Origin: an uncultured SAR116 cluster alpha proteobacterium
Lineage (GTDB): Bacteria; Pseudomonadota; Alphaproteobacteria; Puniceispirillales; Marisalimonadaceae
Assembly (NCBI GenBank): GCA_902616615.1
Contig: CACMTN010000003.1
Span: forward strand, 1-64,000
Direction: 5' to 3'
Length of the DNA: 64,000 nucleotides
This document shows, in pieces, positions 14,018-44,960 of the stretch; within the stretch, counting starts at the first letter, position 1, and every line of letters starts with the position of its first letter. A program made the position numbers and the translations under genes. The notes under the pieces were generated by a model. That model made no database searches and had not been told where the DNA came from. It saw only the letters and a program-made list of their open reading frames with translations.

Positions 14018-14705
14018 ATTTAAATCTTTTAATAAAATAAAATTTTTCATCACTCTTTTGTCCAAAAATACAAATATTATTAAAGTTTATCTTACTTAAA
14101 TTAACTTGTTTTAAAATGTTTTGAAGAGATTTAAACACGCCATCAATTTCCTCAATATTTAATTTACTGGTAAGAGTTAAGTGAAATTTGAATTCATTAA
14201 ATACGTAAGGATAACCCCACTTATAGAGCATTTTTTTTTGATTTGGGGTTAATTTTTCAGGATTTCTTTTTTTTAATTCATCTTCAGAAAGCTCATCTCT
14301 TAAATAATCTAATCCCTTTACAAATTTATTAGATACTTCATTTACTTTGAGATTATTAGTAGGAATTAATGCAATGAAATTACCTAATTTTTTAATAATT
14401 AGTCCGTCTAAATGAAAACTATGTATTTGTTTTGATATTTCACAAACTTTATTTTCAAGATCATTAAAGGTATACCCATCCTTTAATCTAAATGGAGCTT
14501 TTATTGTGCCATGAAATCCATATTGTTTTGGTGCAAGTACAAATCTAGAAAATTTCTGTAAATTGGGTGAACTTGAAAGATCTGACTTAGTAGTTTCTAA
14601 ACCTTTATAAGGATCCCATCCTAACCAACATTTACCAAACACATCTAGCTCTGAATTTTCTAAAGGTGCATAATATATTGCATATCTTTTATAATATTCT
14701 TCCAT
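13998..14705 (-). CDS. Phosphonate-locus 2H-phosphoesterase-like protein (TIGR03223/DUF1045)
   Basis: The 235-residue protein starts RYAIYYAPLENSEL, typical of the putative phosphonate metabolism family, and has two HxT motifs, HGTIKAPF near residue 73 and HLTLT near 185, as in 2H phosphoesterases. Such proteins act on cyclic phosphates or related bonds; the true substrate is not established. It is found widely in alphaproteobacterial phn clusters. Here it is antisense to the end of phnN and divergent from phnM. Confidence 0.85.
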   Translation of the reverse strand: MEEYYKRYAIYYAPLENSELDVFGKCWLGWDPYKGLETTKSDLSSSPNLQKFSRFVLAPKQYGFHGTIKAPFRLKDGYTFNDLENKVCEISKQIHSFHLDGLIIKKLGNFIALIPTNNLKVNEVSNKFVKGLDYLRDELSEDELKKRNPEKLTPNQKKMLYKWGYPYVFNEFKFHLTLTSKLNIEEIDGVFKSLQNILKQVNLSKINFNNICIFGQKSDEKFYFIKRFKFNNLKH

Positions 14706-14806
14706 GAGATTTACATATTATAGTTTTGTTTCAATTTAATTAATATATTTTAACTTTTAAAAAAACTGTAATATTAGAGTCATATGTATAGATATTTAAG
14801 GATTTC

Positions 14807-26757: not shown

Positions 26758-27930
26758 TTAATCTTCAGACACAAGTTGCTTAGCTATTATCAATTTTTGA
26801 AGCTCATTAGTTCCCTCACCAATAGCCAACAAAGGAGCATCCCTATAATATCTCTCAATATTATACTCCGGCGAATACCCAAATCCGCCATGAATTCTCA
26901 TTGCTTCTGTAGAGTTAAACAACGCCGTTTCAGTAGCGAAAAGCTTTGCCATTCCGGCTTGTAAATCTGATCTATTACCAGAATCATATGCCTTTGCAGC
27001 TTGTTCAGTTAATAATCTAGAAGCTTCAAGTTTCGTTGCCATCTCAGCTAATTTAATTTGAATTGCTTGGTGTTCACTAATTGGTTTTCCAAATGTCTTC
27101 CTTATTTTTGCATATTCTATTGAATCTTCGAGAGAGGCTCTTGCCACACCGACGCCACGTGCAGCTACATTAATTCTTCCTAATTCAAGGCCCGCCAAAA
27201 TTTGTTTGAGCCCTTTTCCTTCTATTTCACCAATCAAGTTAGAAGTTGGTACTTTTACATTTTCAAGTTGAACTTCTCCTGTATCAATTCCCCTGTAACC
27301 CAATTTTTTGAGTTTTCTTGATACAAATCCATCTTTCTTTTCAACGAGAATTAAACTCATACCCTTATGGGCTGGTTGAATTTCAGTATTCGTTTTTACT
27401 AAAACAGCTAAAATAGTTCCTTGAACTGAGTTTGTAATCCATGTTTTTGTACCATCAATAATATATTCGTTCCCAACTTTTTTTGCTTTGGTTTTTATTG
27501 ATTGAAGGTCAGTACCACAATCTGGTTCCGTAAGTGCGATACCACCTCTTATCTCTCCAGTTGCAAACTTAGGAAGATAATATTTTTTCATCTCTTCAGT
27601 GCCAAATCTTTCTACAGCAGCACACATTATAAGATGAGAGTTAAAAATACCAGAAACTGACATCCACACGGCTGACACATTTTCTACAATTTTTGAGTAA
27701 GTAACTGCTGACAAACCTAAACCACCATACTCAGGAGAAATTGTAGCACCAAAGAGACCTAAAGCTGCCATTTTATCAGCAATATCTTGTGGATATTTAT
27801 CTTGTGACTCAAATTCTTTTACATATGGCTTTACATCTTTTTCTAAGAATTTATTTACAGATTCTATTATTAAATTATCTTCAGATTCTGATTTTTCATT
27901 TTCAACTTCAATTATTTTATGTTCATTCAT
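26758..27930 (-). CDS. Acyl-CoA dehydrogenase
   Basis: The 390-residue flavoenzyme has the ACAD signatures IALTEPDCGTD, the FAD-binding TWITNS and the C-terminal IHGGFGYSPEYNIERYYRDAP with the catalytic glutamate region DAPLLAIGEGTNELQ. It oxidises an acyl-CoA to the enoyl-CoA, passing electrons to ETF. It follows an MmgE/PrpD gene by 21 bp on the same strand. The itaconate locus of Pseudomonas also includes an acyl-CoA dehydrogenase, so a link with the 30-40 kb cluster is possible. Confidence 0.9.
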   Translation of the reverse strand: MNEHKIIEVENEKSESEDNLIIESVNKFLEKDVKPYVKEFESQDKYPQDIADKMAALGLFGATISPEYGGLGLSAVTYSKIVENVSAVWMSVSGIFNSHLIMCAAVERFGTEEMKKYYLPKFATGEIRGGIALTEPDCGTDLQSIKTKAKKVGNEYIIDGTKTWITNSVQGTILAVLVKTNTEIQPAHKGMSLILVEKKDGFVSRKLKKLGYRGIDTGEVQLENVKVPTSNLIGEIEGKGLKQILAGLELGRINVAARGVGVARASLEDSIEYAKIRKTFGKPISEHQAIQIKLAEMATKLEASRLLTEQAAKAYDSGNRSDLQAGMAKLFATETALFNSTEAMRIHGGFGYSPEYNIERYYRDAPLLAIGEGTNELQKLIIAKQLVSED

Positions 27931-27951
27931 TAATATCTCCTAAATTAATGA

Positions 27952-29334
27952 TTATAGATCTATCTGACTATACTCAAATATTGAATTGACATTATTTGCT
28001 TGATCAATTTTAAGCATTAAATCTGTCAACTGGTTAACTCTTTCATTTGATAAATATGGTTCTGTTAAACCTTTGAACTTTGATATAAATTCATCATCTT
28101 TCATAAAGTTTTCTGGTTCTCCTTTAGGAATTTTTACAAATTTTTCATAAGATTTTCCTTTAATAACCATTTTTACCTTAGCACTCATATATTCTGGACA
28201 ACAGTCCTCAGCATCTTTGTCTGGTGTTACTTTGATTTTATTACATAACGCGAGTGTTTCATTATTATTTAAGTGGTCTTTATAATCGTCCCACTTTAAT
28301 CCACCACTTTTAGCAGCAACAGCTGCACAAAAAGGCATTGAAAATTGCCCATCAACAATACTTTTTGGATTTTGTTTATCCTCTAATGGATAACCAATTA
28401 TATTCAATGCTGTTTCAGACAGACCAATATAAATATCATCTAAATCATCAATGGAAAAATCTAATTCTTGTTTTAGATCTATTATACCATCAATCGCGGC
28501 ATGACTATATCTGCAAGAAGGATAAGGTTTTACTCCTAAGTTAAGTGTTTCAAATTTACTTCCTAAACCATCCAATGCTTTATTTAAATCTCCTCCTGAA
28601 GCGTATGCATGTAAATAACCCCACTGACCTTCAAAAGCTTGAGAAGGACCTTTGAAACCTTCCGCCGCCATCGTCGCACAATTTAGACCATTCTGCGCTG
28701 CTTGCCCAACATGCGATCTTTTTGTCCAAGCACCATCTGTTAAAAATTGCATAGATCCAGCTGATTGACTTAGAGCTATTCCAAATGCAGAGACAAACTG
28801 TTCTTTGGTTAAGCCCATAAGGTAACCTGCTGAAGCTACAGCACCAAAGACACCGCATGTAGCGGTTGGATGAAATCCTTTTTTATAATGTGCTGATGAG
28901 CCTCCAGCTAACCCGAGTCTTATTTGTATTTCATAACCAGCAACACATGCTGTAATCAGCTCTTGTCCTGACGATTTATTCATTTGTGCTGCAGCCAAGG
29001 CAGCTGAAAGTATTGGTGCACTGGAATGTAAAGATGCTTCTGCATGAGTGTCATCAAAATCAAGAGAATGAGCTAAAGTTCCATTAAGTAGAGCGGCTGC
29101 ACTTGGAGAGTAACTGTTTTTGTCTGAGAAAACTTGGCAACTTCCATTATTCATTTCTAATCTGTCGATTGCTGCGACTAAACTAGCAGTTGATTCTGCA
29201 TCATGTCTTGCTCGTATTATTATTCCAACAGTGTCAAGAATTAACAATTTTGTTCTTTTTATAACTTCTGGAGATAAATCTTCGTATCTAGTTTCGGCAC
29301 AAAACTCAGCAAACTTTTCTGTCATATTTTCCAT
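27952..29334 (-). CDS. MmgE/PrpD family protein (copy 1)
   Basis: The 460-residue protein shows family blocks LILDTVGIIIRAR, ALLNGTLAHSLDFDDTHAEASLH with the conserved Asp/His cluster, KGFHPTATCGVFGA and KPYPSCRYSHAAID. The family contains 2-methylcitrate dehydratase PrpD and cis-aconitate decarboxylase, with many untested members. It has a strong GGGGAG ribosome site. It shares a transcript with an acyl-CoA dehydrogenase. Two paralogues lie at 37.6 and 52.7 kb. Confidence 0.88.
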   Translation of the reverse strand: MENMTEKFAEFCAETRYEDLSPEVIKRTKLLILDTVGIIIRARHDAESTASLVAAIDRLEMNNGSCQVFSDKNSYSPSAAALLNGTLAHSLDFDDTHAEASLHSSAPILSAALAAAQMNKSSGQELITACVAGYEIQIRLGLAGGSSAHYKKGFHPTATCGVFGAVASAGYLMGLTKEQFVSAFGIALSQSAGSMQFLTDGAWTKRSHVGQAAQNGLNCATMAAEGFKGPSQAFEGQWGYLHAYASGGDLNKALDGLGSKFETLNLGVKPYPSCRYSHAAIDGIIDLKQELDFSIDDLDDIYIGLSETALNIIGYPLEDKQNPKSIVDGQFSMPFCAAVAAKSGGLKWDDYKDHLNNNETLALCNKIKVTPDKDAEDCCPEYMSAKVKMVIKGKSYEKFVKIPKGEPENFMKDDEFISKFKGLTEPYLSNERVNQLTDLMLKIDQANNVNSIFEYSQIDL

Positions 29335-29440: not shown

Positions 29441-30715
29441 ATGACAAATCCTTTTGAATTAACTGCAACTGATGCAATTAAACTTATAGGTAATAATAAG
29501 TTATCAAGATATGAGTGGGTACAAAGTTGCTTTGAAAGAATTCGTGAAAAAGAAGATCTTGTAAAAGCTTGGGTATACTTGGATGAAGATAGAGCTTTAG
29601 AAAAAGCTAAGCAGTTAGATAATGAAAATGATAAATCACAACTTGGAATTCCATTTGGAATTAAAGATATAATTGATGCAAGTAATACACCTACCGGATT
29701 TGGAACTAATTTTTATCAAAATAATGTTCCTATGAGAGATGCTGCTTCGGTATCCGTTGCAAAACAATCAGGATGTATTTTTATTGGTAAAACTGTATCT
29801 ACTGAACTAGGACATAGAGCTCCAGGATTAACAACAAACCCACATAATAAAGATTTCACACCTGGAGGCTCAAGTTCTGGATCGGCTGCAGCTGTAGCAT
29901 CTATGATGGCACCTGTTTGTTTTGGCACACAAACTACTGGGTCGGTAATAAGACCTGCTGCTTACTGTGGAGTTATTGGGTATAAACCATCTTATGGTGA
30001 TTTTGATAAATCAGGCATTCTACCAAATTCTCCATCAATTGACACTTTGGGATTAATGTCTAGGTCGGTTGAAGATATTGCACTTTTTCGATCAATCCTT
30101 CTTGAAGAAGATTTAGTATCAATACAAAAAGTAGATTTAAGCAAAATTAAAATTGGATTTGTTAGAACACCACACTGGGAAAAAACTGATGATTCTACAA
30201 AGGAAGCTTTTGAGCATTTTCTTAATTTACTCCGTTCAGATAAATTAAATGTAGTTGATTTAGAAATTGATAACCTTATTTCAAAATCTGATGCACTTCA
30301 TTTAGATATAAGTGGATATGAATTTAAAAGATCAATATCTCACGAAAGATTCAATTATTATGACCAATTAAGTGACCAATTAAGGAACGGTAGACTTAAT
30401 GATGGATATCAAGTAAGTAATAAAAATTACCAGTTAGCTTTAAGAGACTTATCAATTCTAAAAAATCAAATTGACGCTGTATTTGACGAAACTGACTTAA
30501 TAATTACACCTAGCGCCGCTGGGGAAGCATTAAAAGGATTAGAATATACTGGTTCACCAATATTTAATACAACGTGGTCTCTTAATGGAAATCCGTGTAT
30601 AACTTTGCCCCTATTTAAGGGTAAACAAGAGTTACCAATTGGATGTCAACTTGTTGCCAGATTTGGAAACGACGATCAACTTCTAAATTATGCAAAAAAC
30701 TTCTTAGAACTTTAA
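29441..30715 (+). CDS. Amidase (amidase-signature family)
   Basis: The 424-residue protein has the amidase signature with the Ser-cisSer-Lys triad: Lys in GIKDII, and GGSSSGSAAAVASM plus GTQTTGSVIRPAAYCGV carrying the two serines. It hydrolyses an amide or related bond of a small molecule. It is a lone plus-strand gene between two leftward units. Its TAA stop shares the TTAA palindrome with the stop of dctM, a 4-bp overlap. Confidence 0.9.
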   Translation: MTNPFELTATDAIKLIGNNKLSRYEWVQSCFERIREKEDLVKAWVYLDEDRALEKAKQLDNENDKSQLGIPFGIKDIIDASNTPTGFGTNFYQNNVPMRDAASVSVAKQSGCIFIGKTVSTELGHRAPGLTTNPHNKDFTPGGSSSGSAAAVASMMAPVCFGTQTTGSVIRPAAYCGVIGYKPSYGDFDKSGILPNSPSIDTLGLMSRSVEDIALFRSILLEEDLVSIQKVDLSKIKIGFVRTPHWEKTDDSTKEAFEHFLNLLRSDKLNVVDLEIDNLISKSDALHLDISGYEFKRSISHERFNYYDQLSDQLRNGRLNDGYQVSNKNYQLALRDLSILKNQIDAVFDETDLIITPSAAGEALKGLEYTGSPIFNTTWSLNGNPCITLPLFKGKQELPIGCQLVARFGNDDQLLNYAKNFLEL

Positions 30716-31995
30716 TTAAAATGAGATTCAACTAATAGTTCTGGAAGTGTAAGTGCTAAAGCTGGGAATAGAAGTACTATAATTAATACAACTGTATCAG
30801 AGATACAGAAAGGAAATGATCCTTTTATAACGGTTGTAACTGGTAAACCAGTTACTCCACTTACTGCAAACAAGTTTAAACCAACAGGTGGGATAACACT
30901 TCCTATTTCTATACATAATGCTGTTAAAATTCCTAAATGAATAGGATCTACACCAAGAGCCAACGCAACAGGGAAATATATAGGTACAGTTAAAACTAAT
31001 ATAGCTACACCTGTGAGAAACATAGATAAGAATAATAATGATCCCATAAGTGCAAACAAAAATCCTGTTTTACTCAGACCCAACTCACCAGCCCATTCAG
31101 CAATCATTTGAGGCCAGCCCATATTAGCAAGATAAAATTGAAAGATACCTACACAACCTAACAGAAAGAATACAACTGCGGTAAGATTCATGGTTCTTAA
31201 TGTAGTTGGCATTAGTTCTTTCGCAAATGTTTTTCTTTTAAATATTAATCCATAAAATAGAGCATAACTAGCTGCAGCTGCGCCTGCTTCAGTCGGAGTG
31301 AATAAGCCACCATACAATCCTCCAAGAATAATCACTGGCATTAATAAGGCAGGAAGTGCTTCTTTGAAACATCTCCAAACTTCGCATAAATCAAACTTTC
31401 CTCGAGGTAATTTAATAAAAAGTGAAACACTGACAATTATAACTGCATCACTCATAGCCAACATCAATCCAGGAATTATACCTGCAAAAAATAAATCGAC
31501 TATGGACATTTCTGTTATGACGCCAAAAAGAATTAAAGTTATGCTTGGTGGAATAAGAAGGGCTATACCACCTGCAGATGCAATAACACCTGCAGCCATC
31601 CATTTAGGATATCCTCTTTTAATTAGCTCGGGATAAGCTATAACACTCATTGCAGCTGCCATAGCAGTAGATGAGCCAGAAATTGCTCCAAATAAAACTG
31701 CTGCAAGCAACGTTGCATAAGCAAAACCACCTGGAACCCATCCAACTATTGAATCAGCAAATTTAAAAAGACTTGCAACTAAACCTGTTTTTTCCATTAA
31801 AAAACCAGCAAAAATAAAAAATGGAATAGCTACTAATGTGTATTTAGTTAGAAAGCTAAAAAAAGCCTCAAATAAGGTACTATATGTTAAAAAATCGTCG
31901 AAGAGCACGAGAAGAGCTGTAGCACCTGCTAGAGCTATACCTATTGGGGCACCAGCAAATAATAAACTGAATAAAGATCCTCCTAAACCCCACAT
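30712..31995 (-). CDS. dctM: TRAP transporter large permease DctM
   Basis: The 427-residue protein has about twelve membrane segments and TRAP-T large-subunit blocks such as IPFFIFAGFLMEKTG, GAISGSSTAMAAAMS and GVITEMSIVDLFFAG. It drives sodium-coupled uptake of carboxylates. It follows dctQ by 24 bp. The unit lies at the 3' end of a CoA-transferase, hydratase and lyase operon, which suggests that the solute is a C4-C5 dicarboxylate. Confidence 0.93.
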   Translation of the reverse strand: MWGLGGSLFSLLFAGAPIGIALAGATALLVLFDDFLTYSTLFEAFFSFLTKYTLVAIPFFIFAGFLMEKTGLVASLFKFADSIVGWVPGGFAYATLLAAVLFGAISGSSTAMAAAMSVIAYPELIKRGYPKWMAAGVIASAGGIALLIPPSITLILFGVITEMSIVDLFFAGIIPGLMLAMSDAVIIVSVSLFIKLPRGKFDLCEVWRCFKEALPALLMPVIILGGLYGGLFTPTEAGAAAASYALFYGLIFKRKTFAKELMPTTLRTMNLTAVVFFLLGCVGIFQFYLANMGWPQMIAEWAGELGLSKTGFLFALMGSLLFLSMFLTGVAILVLTVPIYFPVALALGVDPIHLGILTALCIEIGSVIPPVGLNLFAVSGVTGLPVTTVIKGSFPFCISDTVVLIIVLLFPALALTLPELLVESHFN

Positions 31996-32019
31996 AATGA
32001 GTTTTCCATATTGTTAGTA

Positions 32020-32571
32020 TTAGACATCTGTCGCAGCTTCAACTTCTGCAGTAAAATGGTCACCCTTTATGTAACTATGGATATCTTCAATAAATTGAAG
32101 AAAGGCCACTAAAGACATTAATCCCATACCCAAAGCTAGTATAAAATAAAATGGCCACATAAAGAAAAATAAACTCTCAGTTCTTTCACCAATCTGTATT
32201 GAATATTCAACCGTTGAATAGGCAGTATAAGTCAAAGAACCAGTAAATATAGAAACAAATAAAGATACAAAAATCTTACAAAAACCTACTGTTCTGTGGA
32301 ATCCTTTTGTATTTAAAAGTTGTAAAACAGCACTCATTACAAGATGGTTCCTGTTAATCTGAGTTACACAAATATAAAATGCAACTGATGAAACCATCAT
32401 ATAAATAACTGCATCTTGACCCCATTCAAAAACAACACCAAAAATATATCTTCTAATAATTTCAGCTAACGCAAAGAGTGTAACAGCTATCATTAGGAAA
32501 GCAGAACATCTGCCTAATACAGCAGTAATTAAAGACTGGATTTTGTTTGAGATTTTGTAAAAATTATCCAT
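32020..32571 (-). CDS. dctQ: TRAP transporter small permease DctQ
   Basis: The track begins at a TTG (32580); the ATG three codons in at 32571 is more likely, giving 183 residues. Four membrane helices and the EIIRRYIFGVVFEWGQD motif of DctQ proteins are visible. It joins DctM in the membrane complex. The start is 15 bp downstream of a strong terminator-like hairpin that separates it from dctP. Confidence 0.9.
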   Translation of the reverse strand: MDNFYKISNKIQSLITAVLGRCSAFLMIAVTLFALAEIIRRYIFGVVFEWGQDAVIYMMVSSVAFYICVTQINRNHLVMSAVLQLLNTKGFHRTVGFCKIFVSLFVSIFTGSLTYTAYSTVEYSIQIGERTESLFFFMWPFYFILALGMGLMSLVAFLQFIEDIHSYIKGDHFTAEVEAATDV

Positions 32572-32586
32572 GATAATCAACTAAAT

Positions 32587-32616
32587 AAAAAGGCCTGACA
32601 TAAGCCAGGCCTTTTT
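32587..32616 (-). terminator. Attenuator-like hairpin between dctP and dctQ
   Basis: AAAAAGGCCTG and CAGGCCTTTTT form an 11-bp perfect stem with an 8-base loop. In the transcribed (minus) direction it begins 8 bases after the dctP stop and ends in five T residues, like an intrinsic terminator. Read-through would still express dctQM. The arrangement should make the binding protein more abundant than the permeases. Confidence 0.8.
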
Positions 32617-32624
32617 AAAAATAA

Positions 32625-33794
32625 TTATTTTCTAGACTTTTTCTTATATAGAGCTGTTCCTTTAGCGAACTTAGCAAAGTCTGATGCAAATGCAGTACAG
32701 TCAGTCTTTTCTAAAGCACTTGATCCCATTGGATTAGCTGCAACTAAAGCTTTTGCTTCAGCTGTAAACTGGTCAACCATTTTGTCTCCAGTTGCATCAA
32801 CCTTAGATTTAATCCAATTATTTGTAGCACCACCTTCTTTTGCTTGAAGAACTCCAGCTTCAGCAGGGCTCATTACATAAATTCCAGGAGCACTTTTATC
32901 AGTTGTTTTGAACTTATCAACTAATCTTTTATCATTACAAAAGTTAATAGCCTTTTGGTAAGGAATAAAATCATTCATAATAATGTCTGTTAAAGCAGCC
33001 TGTTGTTTTTTATCAAGAGTAGCCCACCATTTGTTTGATGCACCAATCCAGTAATAGTCACCAACGATACCATTGATACCAGCAACTGTAAAATATGGAG
33101 CTTGTTCTTTGGTAGCATTAAATCCACCTAAACTTGTTAGCAGTCCATCAATAACTCCAGTTTGAAGAGCCGGTGGAACATCACCAAAAGCCATTGTAGT
33201 TGGGTTTGCACCTAAAGCACCTAACAATGCATTTTCAGCAGGTCCCATACTTCTAACTTTCTTACCAGCAAAGTCACTAGGAACTAACATTCTACTTTTA
33301 ACAGCACCAGCACCCATATACATACTTAGATGTCCAGAGCCAAATATAGTAATTCCATGCTTATCATTAAAAACTTTCTTTAATTGAGCAAAAGTTTTTG
33401 TTCCATCAAGTCCATTGATAGCACCAGGAGATGTCAATTTTCCAGCACCAACAATTGTATTAGCATATGGCTCAACACTAGAAGTTTTACCAAATTGACC
33501 AGTCATCATCTCAAGGTTACCTTTTGTTAAAGCTTGAGTACCTTTAGGGACATTATAAAGAGACTTGGCCCAATAAATTTGAACTTTACTTCCAGGAATT
33601 TTTTTCTCAACCTGCTCAGCAAAAAACATTTCTGCAATAGCTGCAGGATGTGGCGGACCAGAATGGTCAGAAGCCCAACGCATCTTAATAGGTTTTACAG
33701 CATGTCCATCAGCTAAAGCTAAATTGGTTCCAGCTGCAAAAGTTAGAGCAACAGCGCCAGCTGCACCTAACAATGATAGTTTATTTAATTTCAT
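32625..33794 (-). CDS. dctP: TRAP transporter substrate-binding protein DctP
   Basis: The 389-residue protein has a signal peptide (MKLNKLSLLGAAGAVALTFAAG, cleaved near ALADG) and TRAP DctP-type features: KIRW-like KPIKMRWASDHSGPPHP, and the conserved VRSMGPAENALLGALGANPTTMAFGDVPPALQTGVIDG region. It binds the solute in the periplasm. It is followed by an attenuator hairpin and dctQM. A GGAGG site precedes its ATG. The ligand is probably a carboxylate, suggested by the operon. Confidence 0.9.
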   Translation of the reverse strand: MKLNKLSLLGAAGAVALTFAAGTNLALADGHAVKPIKMRWASDHSGPPHPAAIAEMFFAEQVEKKIPGSKVQIYWAKSLYNVPKGTQALTKGNLEMMTGQFGKTSSVEPYANTIVGAGKLTSPGAINGLDGTKTFAQLKKVFNDKHGITIFGSGHLSMYMGAGAVKSRMLVPSDFAGKKVRSMGPAENALLGALGANPTTMAFGDVPPALQTGVIDGLLTSLGGFNATKEQAPYFTVAGINGIVGDYYWIGASNKWWATLDKKQQAALTDIIMNDFIPYQKAINFCNDKRLVDKFKTTDKSAPGIYVMSPAEAGVLQAKEGGATNNWIKSKVDATGDKMVDQFTAEAKALVAANPMGSSALEKTDCTAFASDFAKFAKGTALYKKKSRK

Positions 33795-33903
33795 TAAATT
33801 TCCTCCAAATATTTAGAATCACAACCTATAACGATATGCTTTTCAGGTAAACCCTTAATTGCAATAAAACCAATTAATTAGTTAATATGTTATGTAATTT
33901 TAT

Positions 33904-35109
33904 TTAGATTATGCCTTTGTTTTTGAAAGTGCTTATTTGTTCACCAGTAAAACCTATCTCTTTAAGTATATCATCCGTATCTTCGCCTAGTTCTGGGGCA
34001 GTTTTATCTTGAAATTTGTTATCTGAAACATGAACAGGTATTTTCAATAAACTGATATCAACCCCCCTTTTTGTTTTTAATTTTTGGATATTTTTTCTAT
34101 CTTTTAAAAATGGGTTTTCTAAAGACTCTTTTAAATTTAATATTGGAGCAGCTGGAACAACTCCTCCAAACTCGTCCAGCCATTCAGAGGTATTTTTTTT
34201 CATTAATTCTTCATCAAGAATTTTAGTTATTTCGTCTCTATGTTTTTGCCTAGATGAAAAGTCAACAAACATTGAATTGTCAATTAAATCTTCCCTACCT
34301 AGTTTTTTACATAGAACAGGCCAAAAACTCTCCTTGTTGCACATTAAGTAAATCCAACCATCTTTAGTTTTATACAATTGACAAGGAACTAAAATTGGAT
34401 GAGCAGACCTGTCTAATCTTTCACTTTTAAAATCCGTGTTAAGTGTCCAGGCCGCCATATAGCTTTGATTGAACATGGCCGTATCAAATAAATTAACATC
34501 TACATCTCTTCCAACACCAGTGGATCTTGCCGACAAAATAGCACTTACAAGTCCAAAAGACATGGTCAGTCCAGACATATAATCTACAATTGAAAGACCA
34601 AATCTTGCTGGAGGTCCGTTAGGTTCACCAGTAAGTGAAAAATATCCTGCCTCTGCTTGCATAAGATAATCATATCCTGGCCAATTTTTTCTAGGCCCTT
34701 CCCTTCCGTACGCAGAACAATGTGCTGAAACAATTGATTTATTATATTGTTTAAGCTGATCATAAGTTATTCCAAGTTTTTCAGGAACGTCTCCTCTTAA
34801 ATTGTTCGCGACTGCATCAGCATTCTCAACTAATTTTTGAAGAATTTTTTTTCCATCATCTGACAATATATCTAAAGTTATACTTTTTTTGTTTCTATTG
34901 AGAGCTTGAAAAAAAATACTAGAAGCAGAATTCCTATCTTCGCCATCAATAAAATAAGGACCAATTGCTCTTAAATAATCACCACTTGTACCTGCTGGTT
35001 CAACTTTAATTACCTCTGCTCCTAAATCAGCTAAATATTGGGTACCAAATGGTCCCGCTCCATATTGCTCAAAAGCAATTACTTTCACTCCTGATAGAGG
35101 TAAATTCAT
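33904..35109 (-). CDS. CaiB/BaiF CoA-transferase (copy 1)
   Basis: The 401-residue class III CoA-transferase has the N-terminal blocks GVKVIAFEQYGAGPFGTQYLADLGAEVIKVEP and NRNKKSITLD, plus ARFGLSIVDYMSGLTMSFG with the catalytic aspartate (about residue 167). It moves CoA between carboxylic acids through an aspartyl-CoA anhydride. It follows a MaoC gene by 11 bp and precedes dctP. In this setting it may activate a C5 dicarboxylate or move CoA within mesaconyl-CoA. Confidence 0.9.
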   Translation of the reverse strand: MNLPLSGVKVIAFEQYGAGPFGTQYLADLGAEVIKVEPAGTSGDYLRAIGPYFIDGEDRNSASSIFFQALNRNKKSITLDILSDDGKKILQKLVENADAVANNLRGDVPEKLGITYDQLKQYNKSIVSAHCSAYGREGPRKNWPGYDYLMQAEAGYFSLTGEPNGPPARFGLSIVDYMSGLTMSFGLVSAILSARSTGVGRDVDVNLFDTAMFNQSYMAAWTLNTDFKSERLDRSAHPILVPCQLYKTKDGWIYLMCNKESFWPVLCKKLGREDLIDNSMFVDFSSRQKHRDEITKILDEELMKKNTSEWLDEFGGVVPAAPILNLKESLENPFLKDRKNIQKLKTKRGVDISLLKIPVHVSDNKFQDKTAPELGEDTDDILKEIGFTGEQISTFKNKGII

Positions 35110-35120
35110 TGTATTATTCT

Positions 35121-35660
35121 CTAATTAGTTGCTTCATTAATAATTTCGTCAACTACACTATGCCCACGTTTGGCCACCAAAAAAGATCTAACCATATCCA
35201 TAACAACAATTTTATCTTGATTTTTACCAATGTGTCTTACCTTCACAATACCTTGTGTGGGTCTTGATTTTGATTCTCTTTTGTCTAAAACTTCAGTTTC
35301 AGAGTATAATGTATCACCTACAAACACAGGTGCAGGTATTTTTATTTCTTCCCATCCCAAATTAGCTATTGCTTTTTGGCTAGTACCGCTAACACACATC
35401 CCTGTTACGAGGGCTAGAGTAAAAGCCGAATTTACCAAATATTTTCCAAACTCAGATTTAGAAGCATAATTTGCATCAAAGTGAATTGGGTGAGTGTTCA
35501 TTGTTAAATTTGTAAACCATATATTGTCAGCCTCGCTTACTGTCCTACCAGGCCAATGCTCATAAACATCACCTACTTGAAAATCTTCAAAGTATCTACC
35601 TGGATCTTCTCTATACCTTTGGGGTCCTATTTTTTTAATTCCATAAGAATTTTCATCCAT
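35121..35660 (-). CDS. MaoC-like dehydratase/hydratase
   Basis: The 179-residue hotdog protein starts RYFEDFQVGDVYEHWPGRTVSEADNIWFTNLTMNTHPIHFD in outline, which carries the MaoC hydratase motif with Asp/His (near residues 42-60). It hydrates an enoyl-CoA with R-specificity. It overlaps neither neighbour but starts 0 bp after the HpcH gene stop, with a GGAGG site. In the C5-dicarboxylate model it would hydrate mesaconyl- or itaconyl-type CoA esters. Confidence 0.87.
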   Translation of the reverse strand: MDENSYGIKKIGPQRYREDPGRYFEDFQVGDVYEHWPGRTVSEADNIWFTNLTMNTHPIHFDANYASKSEFGKYLVNSAFTLALVTGMCVSGTSQKAIANLGWEEIKIPAPVFVGDTLYSETEVLDKRESKSRPTQGIVKVRHIGKNQDKIVVMDMVRSFLVAKRGHSVVDEIINEATN

Positions 35661-36473
35661 TTAATCCTCCCTTGATATAATCAGCCTTGCAACCGCTAAC
35701 ACGGGTGCATCAACCATTTTACCTTGATATTTAAAAGCACCAGAACCTGCTGTTTTTGCTTCTTCTAAAACACCTTTTGCCCATTCAAGTTCTTCTGTTG
35801 TAGGTCTATAAGCATCATGTATAGGTTTAATTTGATCTGGATGTATAGCAAAACGTCCTTTAAAACCCATAGTTTTGACATACAATGTCTCTTCTCTACA
35901 TCCATCAGGATCTCTGAAATCCAGCCAGACACCGTCAAGAGCAAGTGTGTTGTATAATGCGGCTGCATTAATAATTTTACCCCTTCCATATGCTAAACTA
36001 GCTTTGCCCATATCACCACCGGTTGATGCGCAATAATCTGCTGACCCAAATCCAATTCCAGAAAACTCAATATTAGAACAATCCCAACTTTCAATTGTTG
36101 CGATACCCCGCGGCGTTTCAACTTGAGGTAAAATTAATATATCAGTTCCAAGATCCTTTAAAAAAGCTCTGCATCCATCAGCAGATTCTATTTTAGGAAT
36201 GGCAATAGAGTAAGGAAGAGAAGGTAAAGACCTTAACATTGTTATATCATGTTGATATTCTTCAGTATCCAAAGCATTAATGCGTAATAAAAGTTTATCT
36301 GCTTGACCGTCATAATTTCTATTTGCTAGATCAGCAAAATTAGATCTTCCAATAGCTTTATTTTCAAGTGCCAAACCATCTTCTAAATCGAAAATAACTT
36401 TATCAGCACCTGATCCAATAGCCTTTGGTAACCTCTCAATTTTATCCGTTGGTAAAAATAAAATACTTCTCAA
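35661..36473 (-). CDS. HpcH/HpaI (CitE-like) CoA-ester lyase, possible citramalyl/malyl-CoA lyase
   Basis: The 270-residue TIM-barrel protein begins RSILFLPTDKIERLPKAIGSGADKVIFDLEDG, as in CitE-like lyases, with ILPQVETPRGI and GFGSADYCASTGGD metal-binding blocks. It starts at TTG with an AGGAG site. CitE-like enzymes without citrate-lyase partners cleave malyl-, methylmalyl- or citramalyl-CoA to acetyl-CoA plus a 2-oxo acid. Its place between CoA-transferase and hydratase genes fits citramalyl-CoA lyase. Confidence 0.85.
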   Translation of the reverse strand: MRSILFLPTDKIERLPKAIGSGADKVIFDLEDGLALENKAIGRSNFADLANRNYDGQADKLLLRINALDTEEYQHDITMLRSLPSLPYSIAIPKIESADGCRAFLKDLGTDILILPQVETPRGIATIESWDCSNIEFSGIGFGSADYCASTGGDMGKASLAYGRGKIINAAALYNTLALDGVWLDFRDPDGCREETLYVKTMGFKGRFAIHPDQIKPIHDAYRPTTEELEWAKGVLEEAKTAGSGAFKYQGKMVDAPVLAVARLIISRED

Positions 36474-36488
36474 ATCTATCTCCTTTTT

Positions 36489-37643
36489 TTAAGAACTAAA
36501 TTCAGCTCTAATATTTTTTCCATGTTCATCTAATTCAGGCATCTTATTCACTTCTGGTATAAAATTGTCGTGGATTGCCCCTGGACCTAATACTTTTACA
36601 TTGCCGTTTTTAGTTTCAATTTCTAAAAAATTATTTTGAGGATGGTTTTTTAGTTGTTCCATGTCAGAAATTCTTCCATAAGCAACGCTTGCTTCTTCAA
36701 GTTTTTTAATTAATTCCTCACGTTCAAAAGTAATAAATTTATTTTGAATAATTTTTTCTGTTAATTCTCGATTGGCGACACGATCTGAGTTAGTTTTAAA
36801 GCGAGTATCATTAACCATAGTTTCGTCATCTAAAACAATTTTACATAATTTCACCCATTCTCTATCATTTTGTATAGCAATTAAAATAGTCAAATTATCC
36901 TTGCAATTATATGCACCATAGGGAACGATTATTGGATGGGTCATGCCGTTTCTTTTTGGGATTTTTTTATTATAAACATAACCTAGATAGAAAGGGTTCA
37001 TCCAATCTGCGAGAGAATTAAACATAGAGACTGATATGTGTCTACCTTTTCCACTAATACTTCTCTTGATAAGTGCTTGCAAAATTGCTTGATAAGCTGT
37101 CATTCCGGCAGATATATCACAGACTGATGGGCCAACCTTTGCTCTTCCATCAACCCCATCTTTATCTGGAAGACCAGTTATATCAATAACACCAGTTTCA
37201 GCTTGAATTAACATATCGTAAGCTTTTTGGTTTTTATATGGGCCTTCGTCTCCAAATCCAGAAATAGAACATGTAATTAAAGATGGATGTTTTTTTCTTA
37301 ATTCAACTAAGTTTAAACCAAGGCGGTCAAATGCACCTGGTGCTAAATTTTGGATTAAAATATCTGATTTTGAAATAATATTCTCAAAAATTTTAAAATC
37401 TTTACTGTTTTTAAGATCCAAAGCAACAGACTCTTTTCCTCTATTCAACCAAACAAAATAAGCGCTATTTCCAAGTGCATTCCTATCATAGTTTCTGGCA
37501 AAATCACCTTCAGGTCTCTCAACTTTTATAACTCTGGCACCTGCATCTGCCAGTCTGCAAGATGTATAGGGGGCTGCCACAGCTTGCTCAACTGTTACGA
37601 CTAATAAACCTTCTAAATCCTTTCCGGAATTTTGTCTTTCCAT
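36489..37643 (-). CDS. CaiB/BaiF CoA-transferase (copy 2), candidate itaconate CoA-transferase
   Basis: The 384-residue class III CoA-transferase has VVTVEQAVAAPYTSCRLADAGARVIKVERP at the N-terminus, the LNRGKESVALDL block and catalytic-aspartate region VGPSVCDISAGMTAYQA. It lies directly beside the CitE-like lyase gene and overlaps the MmgE/PrpD start by one base. In Pseudomonas itaconate loci the equivalent gene encodes Ict, which makes itaconyl-CoA from succinyl-CoA. The specific substrate is inferred from synteny. Confidence 0.88.
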   Translation of the reverse strand: MERQNSGKDLEGLLVVTVEQAVAAPYTSCRLADAGARVIKVERPEGDFARNYDRNALGNSAYFVWLNRGKESVALDLKNSKDFKIFENIISKSDILIQNLAPGAFDRLGLNLVELRKKHPSLITCSISGFGDEGPYKNQKAYDMLIQAETGVIDITGLPDKDGVDGRAKVGPSVCDISAGMTAYQAILQALIKRSISGKGRHISVSMFNSLADWMNPFYLGYVYNKKIPKRNGMTHPIIVPYGAYNCKDNLTILIAIQNDREWVKLCKIVLDDETMVNDTRFKTNSDRVANRELTEKIIQNKFITFEREELIKKLEEASVAYGRISDMEQLKNHPQNNFLEIETKNGNVKVLGPGAIHDNFIPEVNKMPELDEHGKNIRAEFSS

Positions 37644-38962
37644 TAGTTAACCAAGCAATCTATTAAAGAAGAAACTTTACTTTCAGAGGGCGAGTTTAAG
37701 ATTGTAGAAATTTCATGAGATTTATTTTTTGATAGCAATGACTCAGATTTGTTAACAATTTTATTTTCCAAAATATTTTGATCAATCTTGTCTGATAAAT
37801 CATGTTTATTTTTTATATCTCTAGTTCCATCTTTAATATAAATTGAAGACTGAGTATTTGTTAATTTGTCATTAGGTATGACTCTTACCTTGTCCCTAAC
37901 ATTATTTATTTTTTCATCAAAACAAATATCATCGTTGTACGTCCCTAAGTCGGCTGTGTCTTTGCCATAAATTGACATGGCTGCTGTTAATTTATAAGAA
38001 AATTTTGATTCCAAACCAGTTTTAGGTTCTTGAATATTACACACTTTGAGCCAAGAAGGATTAGTTTCAATTGCAATCTCTTCAATTGATTCAGGATTAA
38101 AGTTGTTTTCTTGTTTTAATTCCTCAAGTGCTTCCAGGAAAGAATGTAGACCATGACAACAAGCATGAAATTTATACTTAATTTCAGGAAACAAGAAGTC
38201 TGTTCCTAAGTTTTCTACAGCTCTTGTAGGAGTTTTTTTATCCCAACCATGAGTTTGAAAAAAACCTTGATCACACTCAATACCATCTTTTCTTGACACA
38301 AACCCAAGTTTAGATAATTTGGCAGCCTCAATACCATTTGATGCAGCCATCCCTGCGTGATACGGTTTACCCATAGTACCAAATTGGGATTTAATTCCAG
38401 ATGCTCTGGTTGAAACCAAACCAAGCGCATTTATTGTCTGATCCTCGCTCAAATTTAGTAATTTTGATGCAACAATTGTCGCACCAAATGATCCACTTGT
38501 AGCAGTTTGATGGAACCCTGCATTATAATGTGAATAGCCTAAGATATGACCAATTCTAGTAGAGACTTCAACTCCTGACATATAAGCAAGTAATAAATCT
38601 TCTATAGATAATTCTAATTCTTCGCCTAAGGCTAAAGCAGTTGGTAATGCACTTGAAGTTGGATGGCCAACAAAAAGAAAGTGAGTGTCATCATAATCTA
38701 ATGCATGACCAGTTGCTCCATTAGCTAAAGCTGCGCCTCTTGATGAAACGTTGTATCCAGTTGAAATCACTCGTGCTTGATTAACGCCATTTTCTTCTTT
38801 AACCATTTCAGAAACTATTTTCGAAACCGGTTCTTGTTTTGCCGCATAGGCTACTCCACACCAATCTAGAATAGACATCTTTGCAAAAAACTTCATTTCA
38901 TCATTAAAACTGTCTAGTGTACTATTAAATCCATAACTACCAAATAATTTTGTAATCGACAT
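37643..38962 (-). CDS. MmgE/PrpD family protein (copy 2)
   Basis: The 439-residue protein has LDWCGVAYAAKQEPV, ANGATGHALDYDDTHFLFVGHPTSSALP and GFHQTATSGSFGA, all family markers. It lacks the KPY-type motif of copy 1 and reads KYKFHACCHGLHSFLEA there instead. A homologue of unknown role sits in itaconate loci of pseudomonads. It could be a dehydratase or decarboxylase of a C5-C6 tricarboxylate. It is third-from-start in a nine-gene leftward unit. Confidence 0.87.
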   Translation of the reverse strand: MSITKLFGSYGFNSTLDSFNDEMKFFAKMSILDWCGVAYAAKQEPVSKIVSEMVKEENGVNQARVISTGYNVSSRGAALANGATGHALDYDDTHFLFVGHPTSSALPTALALGEELELSIEDLLLAYMSGVEVSTRIGHILGYSHYNAGFHQTATSGSFGATIVASKLLNLSEDQTINALGLVSTRASGIKSQFGTMGKPYHAGMAASNGIEAAKLSKLGFVSRKDGIECDQGFFQTHGWDKKTPTRAVENLGTDFLFPEIKYKFHACCHGLHSFLEALEELKQENNFNPESIEEIAIETNPSWLKVCNIQEPKTGLESKFSYKLTAAMSIYGKDTADLGTYNDDICFDEKINNVRDKVRVIPNDKLTNTQSSIYIKDGTRDIKNKHDLSDKIDQNILENKIVNKSESLLSKNKSHEISTILNSPSESKVSSLIDCLVN

Positions 38963-38982
38963 AATCTACCCTTTCCCTAAAA

Positions 38983-39840
38983 CTATTCAAAATGTGCTTC
39001 AGCTTGCATGGTCATTCCTGAACCCTCTACAGCACCCCAACAACTAACACTTCCATCAATGTTTTCCTTTGCGCCAATTATATAATCACTATTTGCAAAA
39101 ACAGGGGCCATAACTTTATGACTAAATGATTTTACAGTTTTGCCTTTAAGCTTTTCAGCTGCCCTTAATAAAAAAGTAGCTTGCAACGGACCATGAACAA
39201 TTAAATCAGGATAGTTCTCTTCATTTTTAGTATATGGATAGTCATAATGTATTCTATGACCTACAAAACCAATCGCTGAATAACGGAACAATATTGTTGG
39301 ATGCATAAAAATAGTTTCTGTATAGTCTGCGTCTTCAGGTATTTTATCTGACACACCAGAACCACCGCCTGCTTTAGTTACATCTCTATAAACAATATTA
39401 TGAAGTTCATGCAATCTTACCTCTTCATTAACTAAAAATTCATACTCTGCAGTAACAAAACAAAGCTGTCCTGTCCTACCTTCCTTTAGTTTTATGTCAG
39501 CTACCTTAGATTTTTTTATTACTTTATCACCTACTCTTAAAGGTTTTATTACTTTGATCAGACTGCCTGCCCACATTCTTCTTGGAAGTGGGACTGGAGG
39601 CAAAAAATCACCTTTAGCTGGATGAGAATCCACACCAAGTTCGTCATTTTTTTTTAAATCCCAACCTAACATCCAATGCAAACCAGAGGTTGCATCCTCC
39701 CCAATTTTGGGATCGCCTGGATCAATATTTAATGTTGCTCTGTACCTCTGTTCAACAATTGGTGTAAGGTAATCTGTTACAGTCTCTATATTACCTAACC
39801 ATTTATTTAAATGATTAATATCAAGCGCTTCATTTTCCAT
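38983..39840 (-). CDS. FAS1-type MaoC dehydratase, itaconyl/mesaconyl-C4-CoA hydratase-like
   Basis: The 285-residue protein is a double-hotdog hydratase-like protein. GLHWMLGWD and LPRRMWAGSLIKV are typical of mesaconyl-C4-CoA hydratase (Meh) and itaconyl-CoA hydratase (Ich), and the second half has RYSAIGFVGHRIHYDYPYT with the catalytic histidine region and VHGPLQATFLL. It is the first gene of the unit. Hydration would give citramalyl-CoA, the substrate for the downstream lyase. Ich and Meh cannot be told apart by eye. Confidence 0.82.
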   Translation of the reverse strand: MENEALDINHLNKWLGNIETVTDYLTPIVEQRYRATLNIDPGDPKIGEDATSGLHWMLGWDLKKNDELGVDSHPAKGDFLPPVPLPRRMWAGSLIKVIKPLRVGDKVIKKSKVADIKLKEGRTGQLCFVTAEYEFLVNEEVRLHELHNIVYRDVTKAGGGSGVSDKIPEDADYTETIFMHPTILFRYSAIGFVGHRIHYDYPYTKNEENYPDLIVHGPLQATFLLRAAEKLKGKTVKSFSHKVMAPVFANSDYIIGAKENIDGSVSCWGAVEGSGMTMQAEAHFE

Positions 39841-40281: not shown

Positions 40282-40318
40282 ATATGTATTTCAAGTGATA
40301 AAAATAGAAGGATCAGTA

Positions 40319-41110
40319 ATGAGTAAAAATATTGTATTAACAAGCGTAAATGAAAGAGGAATTGCTGAAGTTATTTTAAACCGTCCAGAAAGAAATAATG
40401 CATATAACGGAGATATGATTATTGAATTAATCAAAAGCTTTGAATCTTTATATAAAAATAATTCTGTAAGAATAGTGCTAATTAAAGGCAATGGAAAACA
40501 TTTTCAAGCAGGAGCTGACTTACAATGGCTTAAAGAAATTGGTAAACTTAGTCAAAAAGAAAATATAGAGGTTTCGAGAAAAACAGCTTCAGCGATTCAA
40601 GGTCTTACAAAGTTCCCTAAGCCAACAATAGCTTTGATCCATGGAGGATGCTTTGGAGGTGGAACTGGAATTGCCGCAGCAGCTGACATAGTAATAGCTA
40701 GTGAAGACGCTATTTTTTCTATTTCTGAAGCTAGATGGGGGGTAATGGCAGGAATAATAATACCTCATTTAAACGCCAGTATTGGCGTAAGAAACGTTAG
40801 AAGATATGCTCTTACATGTGAGCGTTTTAGCTCTAGTCAGGCCAAGGATATGGGTTTAGTTCACCAAGTTTGTAAAACGGGTGAGCTTGAAAATGCTGTT
40901 CAACCTGTTATTGAGGACTTGTTAATGTGCGCTCCAGATGCATTGGAAGCTACAAAAAGAAGAACTTTAATTGAAAGTGGTTTAATGTTGTCAGATGAAA
41001 AATTTGACGAACTTGTTTTTGAACATTCTCAAAAAAGGATGACTAATGAAGCAAAAGAGGGTCTAAATAGTTTTCTTGAGAAAAGAGCTGCATCTTGGTA
41101 TCAAAATTAA
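40319..41110 (+). CDS. Enoyl-CoA hydratase/isomerase (crotonase), methylglutaconyl-CoA hydratase-like
   Basis: The track starts at a GTG (40295); the ATG at 40319 has a GGA site just before it and gives 263 residues. Crotonase oxyanion-hole segments are HFQAGADLQWLKE (near residue 63) and HGGCFGGGTGIAAAADI (near 105), and the glutamate region is ISEARWGVMAG. The AGADLxWL block is seen in methylglutaconyl-CoA hydratase (LiuC). No other leucine-degradation genes are nearby, so the substrate is open. Confidence 0.87.
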   Translation: MSKNIVLTSVNERGIAEVILNRPERNNAYNGDMIIELIKSFESLYKNNSVRIVLIKGNGKHFQAGADLQWLKEIGKLSQKENIEVSRKTASAIQGLTKFPKPTIALIHGGCFGGGTGIAAAADIVIASEDAIFSISEARWGVMAGIIIPHLNASIGVRNVRRYALTCERFSSSQAKDMGLVHQVCKTGELENAVQPVIEDLLMCAPDALEATKRRTLIESGLMLSDEKFDELVFEHSQKRMTNEAKEGLNSFLEKRAASWYQN

Positions 41111-41126
41111 ATCATAGGATATATAA

Positions 41127-42482
41127 ATGCCTGCATTAGTTACAAATTCAAAAATATGGGGAGAAGTGTTTGGTACTAAAGAAATGCATTTCTTATTTTC
41201 TGATGAGAGTACTACACAACTTTATTTAGATGTAGAAGCGGCTTTAGCAAGATCACAATCAAAGTTGAATATTATACCAAAAGAAGCTGGAGAAAAAATA
41301 ACCCAAGCAGCAAAAGTAGATATAATTGATTGGAAGAAACTTGAAAAAAGGACATCTATAGTTGGATATCCAATTCTTCCACTAGTAGAACAACTAAGTG
41401 AAAAAGTTGAAGGCAACTTTGGACAATTTTGTCATTGGGGCGCTACAACACAAGATATTATGGACACAGCAGATATCCTTCAAATTAGAAAGGGTCTTGA
41501 ATTATTATCTAAAGACCTAAAGTCAATTTCAGATGCTTTAGAAAAAATTGTTGAATATCACATTAAAACACCGATGGCTGGTAGAACACATTTGCAACAT
41601 GCTTTACCTATATCTTTTGGGTACAAGGCATCTACTTGGTTATCTGGTATAGATAGGCATCACAAAAGACTGGAAGAAATAAAGAAACGTATTTTCAATG
41701 TTTCATTTTTTGGAGCAGCAGGAACACTTGCTTCTTTGGGAGAAGATAAAGGTCTTAAGACACAGTCAACTCTTGCAGAAGAATTAGATCTGAATGTACC
41801 TGACGTAAGTTGGCATTCTATTAGAGATAATTTTTGTGAAGTGACTGGTTGGCTTGCAATAGTCGCCGCATCGCTTGGTAAAATAGCTTATGATGTGATG
41901 TTAATGATGCAAACAGAAACACAAGAAGTGGCTGAACCATATCTTCACGGACGAGGTTCTTCTTCGACAATGCCTCAAAAAAGAAACCCCATTTCTTCTG
42001 AGATAATGCTGGCTTGTTCAAAACTATTAAGAGAACATCATTCTTCTATGCTAGATGCTATGGTCCTTGACCATGAAAGAGCTACAGGTCAATGGCATGT
42101 AGAATGGCATGTAATACCTAACGCCTTTTTGGTTGCTTCTTCATCTTTCAACTCAGCTAAATATCTTTTGGAAGGTTTAGAAGTATCACCTGAAAAAATG
42201 AAGGAAAACATTTATAAAACTAATGGGTTAATTGTTGCAGAGTCTGTTATGATGGCCCTCGCACCCAAAATGGGAAGACAAATTGCACACGATTTAGTTT
42301 ATGACTGTTGTAGGGAATCAATCAAAAACAACATATCATTCATAGATATATTATTAAAAAACAAAGAAATTTCTAAATTTTTTAATGAACAAGATTTGTT
42401 AAAAATGATAGATCCATCTAATTATTTAGGAGCAGCTCCTACTATGGCACAGAGACTTTTAGATAAAAGAAAGTTACCATAA
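41127..42482 (+). CDS. Fumarase/aspartase-superfamily lyase, PcaB or adenylosuccinate-lyase-like
   Basis: The 451-residue protein has the superfamily signature GSSTMPQKRNPI near residue 275, the HWGATTQDIMDT block near 110 and GRTHLQHALP near 150. The size and blocks resemble 3-carboxy-cis,cis-muconate cycloisomerase (PcaB) and its COG0015 relatives. It lies between a crotonase and a thioesterase, 16 bp from the former. PcaB would connect to pcaHG at 58 kb, but the genes are far apart, so another elimination reaction is possible. Confidence 0.75.
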   Translation: MPALVTNSKIWGEVFGTKEMHFLFSDESTTQLYLDVEAALARSQSKLNIIPKEAGEKITQAAKVDIIDWKKLEKRTSIVGYPILPLVEQLSEKVEGNFGQFCHWGATTQDIMDTADILQIRKGLELLSKDLKSISDALEKIVEYHIKTPMAGRTHLQHALPISFGYKASTWLSGIDRHHKRLEEIKKRIFNVSFFGAAGTLASLGEDKGLKTQSTLAEELDLNVPDVSWHSIRDNFCEVTGWLAIVAASLGKIAYDVMLMMQTETQEVAEPYLHGRGSSSTMPQKRNPISSEIMLACSKLLREHHSSMLDAMVLDHERATGQWHVEWHVIPNAFLVASSSFNSAKYLLEGLEVSPEKMKENIYKTNGLIVAESVMMALAPKMGRQIAHDLVYDCCRESIKNNISFIDILLKNKEISKFFNEQDLLKMIDPSNYLGAAPTMAQRLLDKRKLP

Positions 42483-42486
42483 TATA

Positions 42487-42903
42487 ATGCAACAATTAAT
42501 GACAAAAGAAAGCCTTGATAAATTTTTAAATAAAGAATTTCCTCAAGTAAGCAAAAACTTCAAGATATTAAATGTAAGCAACCAGTCTTTTTCAATGCTA
42601 ATGTACATTACTGAAGAACATTTGAGACCAGGGGCAACAGTTTCAGGCCCAACAATGTTTTTATTGGCAGACGTAACTTTTTATTTAGCAACACTAAGCA
42701 TTATAGGACCAAAAAGTCTTACTGTTACAACCAATTGTTCAATAAATTTTTTAAGAAAACCAAATGAGAAAAATTTAACTAGTAAAGCCAGAATTTTAAA
42801 ATTAGGAAAAACTTTAAGTGTAGGCGATGTTTTAATTTATTCAGAAGATATTGACGAGCCTGTTGCCCACGCTTCACTTACATATTCTATTCCACAAAAA
42901 TAA
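42487..42903 (+). CDS. Hotdog-fold thioesterase (PaaI-like)
   Basis: The 138-residue protein contains the hotdog core RPGATVSGPTMFLLADVTFYLA and SLTVTTNCSINFLRKP, as in PaaI/YigI-type acyl-CoA thioesterases, where the aspartate in LLADV is the usual catalytic position. It begins 4 bp after the PcaB-like stop, within the same transcript. It may release CoA from a product of the upstream enzymes. Its stop lies two bases from the convergent fghA stop. Confidence 0.8.
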   Translation: MQQLMTKESLDKFLNKEFPQVSKNFKILNVSNQSFSMLMYITEEHLRPGATVSGPTMFLLADVTFYLATLSIIGPKSLTVTTNCSINFLRKPNEKNLTSKARILKLGKTLSVGDVLIYSEDIDEPVAHASLTYSIPQK

Positions 42904-44839: not shown

Positions 44840-44960
44840 TGTGTCCCCCAAACAATAATTTTCTTAAATGTAAAATTTATTATGATTTAATATCCATGAC
44901 TTGCAAGATTTTTTAGTATATAAATTAGTTTTCAAGGATTTAGATATTAGGAGCATCTCT

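Follow-up and report, generated by a model that had tools for sequence, protein, structure and literature searches.

A candidate operon for C5-branched dicarboxylate catabolism with parts of two itaconate pathway variants in a SAR116 alphaproteobacterium

In this study, we analysed a 64,000-nucleotide stretch of DNA (contig CACMTN010000003.1, assembly GCA_902616615.1; hereafter, the window) from an uncultured SAR116 cluster alphaproteobacterium of the order Puniceispirillales. A block of nine minus-strand open reading frames (ORFs), running from position 39840 down to 30712, encodes coenzyme A (CoA) transferases, hydratase-like proteins, a CoA-ester lyase and a tripartite ATP-independent periplasmic (TRAP) transporter. 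With moderate confidence, we propose that this operon catabolises C5-branched dicarboxylates, with itaconate and/or methylsuccinate as the likeliest substrates, and that it joins parts of two bacterial itaconate pathway variants, which the literature treats as separate products of convergent evolution (PMC12290011). A cluster that holds parts of both variants, and in which one hydratase is without its catalytic residue, would mean that such modules can be combined, and it suggests branched C5 dicarboxylates as carbon sources for a marine lineage. Our literature searches found no paper linking SAR116 to itaconate or methylsuccinate.

Gene content and conservation of the locus

The families along the block are, in order, Ich-like protein, MmgE/PrpD, CaiB, CitE, MaoC, CaiB, DctP, DctQ and DctM. 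This is the order of nine leftward genes given in the initial annotation, and both the ORF coordinates and the Pfam/NCBIfam matches agree with it. Each assignment was backed by these profiles, with bit scores of 357 and 327 (CoA_transf_3), 79 (MaoC), 93 (HpcH_HpaI) and 193 (MmgE_PrpD_N) for the enzymes and of 321 (DctM), 50 (DctQ) and 80 (DctP) for the transport genes. Intergenic distances across the nine genes range from -1 to 109 bp: MmgE1 and CaiB1 share 1 bp, CaiB1 and CitE are separated by 15 bp, and CitE and MaoC abut. Such short spacing is compatible with a single predicted transcript. Beyond DctM, a second MmgE/PrpD gene and an acyl-CoA dehydrogenase (ACAD) gene lie on the same strand, set apart by a convergent amidase gene on the opposite strand. 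These two genes (26758-29334), as well as a divergent three-gene set (40295-42903), had been overlooked initially. The genes on the operon strand are as follows.

38983..39840, minus strand: Ich-type double-hotdog protein (PA0878 family), with active-site motif SAIGFVGHRIHYD; from the match to PDB 8khg and an AlphaFold2 (AF2) model
37643..38962, minus strand: MmgE/PrpD family protein 1 (MmgE1), with epimerase-type residues; in a clade with proteins from itaconate-type clusters of relatives in the order
36489..37643, minus strand: CaiB-family CoA-transferase 1 (CaiB1), in the clade of the P. aeruginosa itaconate CoA-transferase (Ict)
35661..36473, minus strand: CitE-family CoA-ester lyase, probably on the side of RipC and not of Ccl
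35121..35660, minus strand: MaoC-family hydratase, RipB-type, with the Asn/His motif MNTHPIHFD intact (NF038241, 233 bits, cut-off 340)
33904..35109, minus strand: CaiB-family CoA-transferase 2 (CaiB2), in a clade seen in RipB/RipC/ACAD operons
32625..33794, minus strand: DctP TRAP binding protein, not IctP-like (profile match and residue comparison)
32020..32580, minus strand: DctQ TRAP small permease (profile match)
30712..31995, minus strand: DctM TRAP large permease (profile match)
27952..29334, minus strand: MmgE/PrpD family protein 2 (MmgE2), with epimerase-type residues and a match to a Shinella MmgE
26758..27930, minus strand: ACAD of the RipB-operon clade (55-62% identity)

Gene content and gene order of the whole locus were preserved in all 12 genomes of the genus that were inspected, and a search of 37 genus genomes, among them the one that contains the window, recovered a copy of the operon Ich with at least 89% identity in 33. 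Mean pairwise ratios of nonsynonymous to synonymous substitution rates (dN/dS) were 0.02-0.07 across the nine genes, revealing strong purifying selection. Together, the complete synteny and the low dN/dS values exclude a chance arrangement. The earlier description of the genome as small and AT-rich was right in kind; the assembly comprises 1.73 Mb in 63 contigs and is 75% complete.

Two sources of the operon genes

We compared the operon with a cluster of P. aeruginosa PA7 (L040) as well as with plasmid-borne and genomic loci. The enzymes appear to fall into two sets, one (Ich, MmgE1 and CaiB1) resembling the P. aeruginosa-type cluster and the other (CitE, MaoC, CaiB2 and ACAD) matching operons such as L163. 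In the phylogenetic trees, CaiB1 and P. aeruginosa PA7 Ict formed one clade (support of 100 in the Shimodaira-Hasegawa-like approximate likelihood ratio test, SH-aLRT), and MmgE1 grouped (100/100) with proteins from related members of the order, whose clusters also carry Ich, CitE and CaiB1. CaiB2 grouped with the CoA-transferases of operons containing RipB and RipC. Both transferases belong to CoA_transf_3 and neither to the RipA family. The top NCBIfam model for the MaoC protein was RipB_Ich (NF038241, 233 bits), and its catalytic Asn/His motif (N-T-H-P-I-H) is retained. As initially suggested, the set of CoA-transferase, hydratase and CitE-type lyase is thus akin to that of itaconate degradation, on the evidence of profile matches, the 8khg match and the trees.

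The lyase was expected to be of the P. aeruginosa type, which the tree disfavours: with support of 100/99 and on a long branch, it joined Yersinia pestis RipC and was separate from P. aeruginosa Ccl, with the caveat that an approximately unbiased (AU) test did not formally reject a position on the Ccl side (p 0.149). A placement on the RipC side is therefore probable. The NCBIfam RipC model (NF038242) is of no use as a discriminator here, because it gives nearly the same score to PA7 Ccl (157 bits) as to the operon lyase (161 bits; cut-off 375).

The proposed parallel with P. aeruginosa holds for the kinds of genes and for the position of CaiB1; given the probable side of the lyase, the TRAP genes and the altered Ich, the locus is no copy of that of P. 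aeruginosa. In the latter (PA0878-PA0886: ich, mcd, rdo, msi, ict, ccl and IctPQM), an Ich-type hotdog protein, ACAD, MmgE/PrpD, CaiB, a CitE-type lyase and a TRAP system are common to the window. However, the window has a lyase that is probably on the RipC side, an added RipB-type MaoC and second CaiB, an ACAD of another clade, a changed Ich active site and a non-orthologous TRAP system. The likeness to Yersinia ripABC lies in the RipB-type MaoC, with its motif intact, adjoining the lyase that is probably on the RipC side, whereas RipA (acetyl-CoA hydrolase/transferase family) is absent and CaiB-type transferases stand in its place; the MaoC and lyase score below the NCBIfam cut-offs, and ACAD, MmgE and TRAP genes are added.

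Counterparts of the second set are the uncharacterised alphaproteobacterial operons L163 and L160, which are arranged as DctMQP, RipC, RipB, ACAD (missing from L160), CaiB2 and GntR. Identities to the window proteins are 39-42% for the lyase, 69-75% for MaoC and 54-55% for CaiB2, the values for L163 alone being 42% (CitE), 69% (MaoC), 54% (CaiB2) and 61% (ACAD). Both operons differ from the window in having a GntR regulator and another TRAP system (DctM 31-36%) and in lacking Ich, CaiB1 and MmgE. Conversely, three loci of the same order (L022, L023 and L026) carry MmgE1-Ich-CitE-CaiB1 clusters, to which window CaiB1 and MmgE1 are 50-55% and 41-42% identical, respectively; they differ in a Ccl-side lyase, an intact Ich motif and the absence of the MaoC/CaiB2/TRAP set. 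Another member of this order (L025) has CaiB1-CitE-Ich plus an acyl-CoA dehydrogenase.

The two hydratase types were then surveyed in 385 genomes of the class (E <= 1e-40). MaoC was found in 65, Ich in 111 and both in 28, and only in the window genome do the two lie within 4 kb of each other; in none of the others are they closer than 19.8 kb. This separation in 27 of the 28 genomes with both types, together with the trees that keep the two sets apart, would fit two independent pathways that are merely co-transcribed, one surviving as a remnant of Ict/Ich/MmgE1 and the other, for another acid, complete with RipB/RipC/CaiB2/TRAP/ACAD. We consider this rather improbable: the operon has a single lyase and no further one turned up in the 75%-complete assembly, which would leave the Ict set without a lyase of its own, and joint use is suggested by the tight spacing (1 bp overlap, 15 bp) and by conservation across the genus.

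It had also been suggested that the additional MaoC and CoA-transferase could extend the pathway to the second half of the 3-hydroxypropionate bicycle, through mesaconyl-C1-CoA and beta-methylmalyl-CoA. The MaoC protein does match PDB 8hgn and, with 69 bits over one hotdog, the Pfam model for mesaconyl-CoA hydratase. However, it is a single-hotdog RipB-type protein, and the profiles disfavour the route, with 27 and 73 bits for the Mct (2-methylfumaryl-CoA isomerase) model TIGR04253 (cut-off 725) and 31 bits for the malyl/beta-methylmalyl-CoA lyase model NF041626 (cut-off 500). Such a pathway is very unlikely.

The Ich-type protein and the predicted route

The best PDB match of the Ich-like protein was P. 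aeruginosa itaconyl-CoA hydratase (8khg, E 1.6e-49). The motif S-A-x-T-[FY]-N-[GS]-H-R-I-H-Y-D is near-invariant among 39 Ich homologues (T in 39/39, N in 38/39), whereas the operon protein reads SAIGFVGHRIHYD, with the substitutions T191G and N193V. All genus copies examined have GFV at the altered positions, showing that the change is fixed in the genus. The Asn position precedes the conserved His by five residues, just as Asn226 precedes His231 in mesaconyl-CoA hydratase, where these two have been proposed as the catalytic pair (PMC10164722). The initially assigned role of an Ich/Meh-like hydratase is thus doubtful, since the catalytic Asn and the nearby Thr kept by nearly all homologues are gone. 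An AF2 model, built like our others from alignments without plasmid-collection rows, had a predicted local distance difference test score (pLDDT) of 91 and a template modelling (TM) score of 0.89 to 8khg. Probably, the fold has been retained and the chemistry altered, such that the protein no longer performs ordinary hydration; it may be an isomerase, a helper or an enzyme for another substrate. Without the catalytic Asn in Ich, the MaoC protein is the likelier working hydratase.

The same genome contains an Ich paralogue with an intact motif (G000:C5:35347-36186; L021:9348-10193), which is 52% identical to the operon Ich and adjoins a glutathione-reductase-like gene, away from itaconate genes. 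Copies of this paralogue (51-55% identical) are present in most genus members.

From gene content, homology, clade membership, residue changes, synteny and selection, we infer the following route. The TRAP system would import the acid and an MmgE/PrpD protein would isomerise methylsuccinate stereochemically where needed. CaiB1, of the Ict clade, would activate the acid with CoA from succinyl-CoA, CaiB2 would act on a second substrate or at another ester position, and methylsuccinyl-CoA would be oxidised by the ACAD (26758-27930). The RipB-type MaoC would then hydrate itaconyl-CoA or mesaconyl-C4-CoA to citramalyl-CoA, which the RipC-type lyase would split into acetyl-CoA and pyruvate. As a tentative elaboration that we would not expect to hold, the operon Ich could be a neofunctionalised, non-hydratase double-hotdog enzyme acting as a partner of the RipB/RipC-type enzymes, in a third, chimeric branch of branched-dicarboxylate catabolism; it may, for example, be dedicated to isomerising itaconyl-/mesaconyl-CoA, or act on a bulkier alkylidene-succinyl-CoA.

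On the other hand, the acid degraded could be another, probably bulkier substituted succinate or branched dicarboxylate, for which Ich was remodelled and whose citramalyl-CoA homologue is cleaved by the RipB/RipC-type enzymes. T191G and N193V, fixed in the genus, replace polar with small or hydrophobic residues while the genome keeps an intact-motif paralogue elsewhere; the DctP binding site is unlike that of IctP; and RipB-type operons occur in varied contexts, such as beside a B12-dependent acyl-CoA mutase in L031. However, CaiB1 groups with Ict, the clusters that related members of the order carry are of the ordinary Ich/Ict/lyase kind, and nothing points positively to any specific alternative substrate, which makes this explanation possible but unlikely. 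The L031 cluster (Pseudosulfitobacter pseudonitzschiae plasmid pSMR1-4) contains a RipB-type MaoC, MmgE, ACAD, CoA-ester lyase and TRAP genes and adjoins a B12-dependent methylmalonyl-CoA-mutase-family protein and MeaB; it may encode a related pathway that includes a mutase step.

Several observations weigh against C5-branched dicarboxylates as the substrates. Besides the residue missing from Ich and the AU result for the lyase, all enzymes fall under the curated NCBIfam equivalog cut-offs (RipB 233/340 and RipC 161/375 bits), although PA7 Ccl, too, reaches no more than 157/375 with the RipC model. Furthermore, the ACAD is outside the characterised methylsuccinyl-CoA dehydrogenase (Mcd) clade (31% identity to PA7 Mcd), and orthologues of DctP (53-71%) sit in loci without itaconate genes.

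Isomerases, transporter and neighbouring genes

The catalytic residues of methylsuccinate isomerase (H88, E91, H102, Y148, H152, K202 and K266), including a reported second-base Tyr (PMC12290011), were compared with those of the MmgE/PrpD proteins. Both MmgE1 and MmgE2 keep the full set, including the second-base Tyr, with D in place of E91 as in IDS epimerase. MmgE2 is 42% identical to the MmgE of a five-gene methylsuccinate-type cluster in Shinella. Methylsuccinate isomerases of the MmgE family are reportedly encoded beside an acyl-CoA dehydrogenase gene (PMC12290011). Here, the ACAD groups with the RipB-operon clade and apart from the PA0879-type methylsuccinyl-CoA dehydrogenase; since it is outside the Mcd clade, the suggestion of methylsuccinate as a substrate comes from pathway logic and from the neighbouring MmgE2 gene rather than from orthology. 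A third MmgE of the window, at 52703, has His at the Y148 position.

The prediction that the operon has its own TRAP importer was borne out by the presence of the genes, but the transporter is not orthologous to IctPQM. Of the carboxylate contacts of IctP (K41, K94, R169, N209, N213 and Y236; PMC12599236), the window DctP, aligned with a Halopseudomonas IctP relative (L108), keeps the equivalents of K94, R169 and Y236 and has K41 replaced by A, N209 by T and N213 by G. Because of these changed contacts and of orthologues away from itaconate genes, import of C5 dicarboxylates is plausible from position only. The AF2 model of DctP was uninformative as to its substrate, with similar TM scores to many binding proteins (sialate, dicarboxylate, isethionate and ectoine).

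The window also contains a third CaiB (45779-46990) and a second enoyl-CoA hydratase (44901-45770). Their homologues in L194 (61-63%) share a contig with an orthologue of the operon TRAP, about 7 kb away, hinting at a connection to the transporter.

The divergent set consists of three genes.

40295..41110, plus strand: enoyl-CoA hydratase (crotonase family), a conserved neighbour by genus synteny
41127..42482, plus strand: fumarase/adenylosuccinate-lyase superfamily protein, tied to the operon by position only
42487..42903, plus strand: hotdog thioesterase, a conserved neighbour by genus synteny

The divergent lyase (41127-42482) could in principle make itaconate from trans-aconitate, like Ustilago Tad1, for the operon to degrade. 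It is 43.5% identical to Tad1 over the full length, its phmmer score to Tad1 exceeds that to PcaB, and among its PDB relatives of named activity, the Ustilago trans-aconitate decarboxylase ranks first. However, it is closer to 3c8t (51%), and it has R-T-H-L-Q (GRTHLQ) like the other lyases compared, whereas Tad1 and Tad1-like bacterial proteins have R-S-N-L-[QK]. Moreover, its nearest relatives (60-62%) lie away from itaconate genes. We regard this source of itaconate as extremely improbable, and a trans-aconitate decarboxylase feeding the operon was rejected on the absent R-S-N-L motif and the neighbours of the relatives. Assignment as PcaB was likewise not adopted, the score (332 bits) being below the cut-off (355.75); the lyase is nevertheless the best candidate, with no better PcaB in the incomplete assembly, and might still have this role.

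R-S-N-L proteins were observed in four bacterial operons, of Azospirillum brasilense (L139:7001-8362), Variovorax sp. SRS16 (L140:7001-8347), Bradyrhizobium sp. CB82 (L141:7001-8359) and Cupriavidus oxalaticus (L203:7001-8347). Those of L139-L141 are annotated as pcaB or adenylosuccinate lyase and are 55-58% identical to the Ustilago trans-aconitate decarboxylase; that of L203 is unannotated. All four clusters contain Ich and CaiB, the latter of the Ict clade in L139-L141, whose CaiB proteins were placed in the tree, and some also a CoA-ester lyase (L140, L141), DctA (L139-L141) or a PrpF/tautomerase-family protein (L139, L140, L203). Judged from these gene sets, they suggest a bacterial route from trans-aconitate through itaconate to acetyl-CoA and pyruvate. 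C. necator has a second Ich cluster that was left unassigned (PMC12290011), which such clusters may explain.

Elsewhere in the window, ORF translations point to a protocatechuate 3,4-dioxygenase-like pair and a 4-hydroxybenzoate-hydroxylase-like gene (57529-60039) and, by translations only, to genes resembling a phn (carbon-phosphorus lyase) phosphonate operon (9061-15952).

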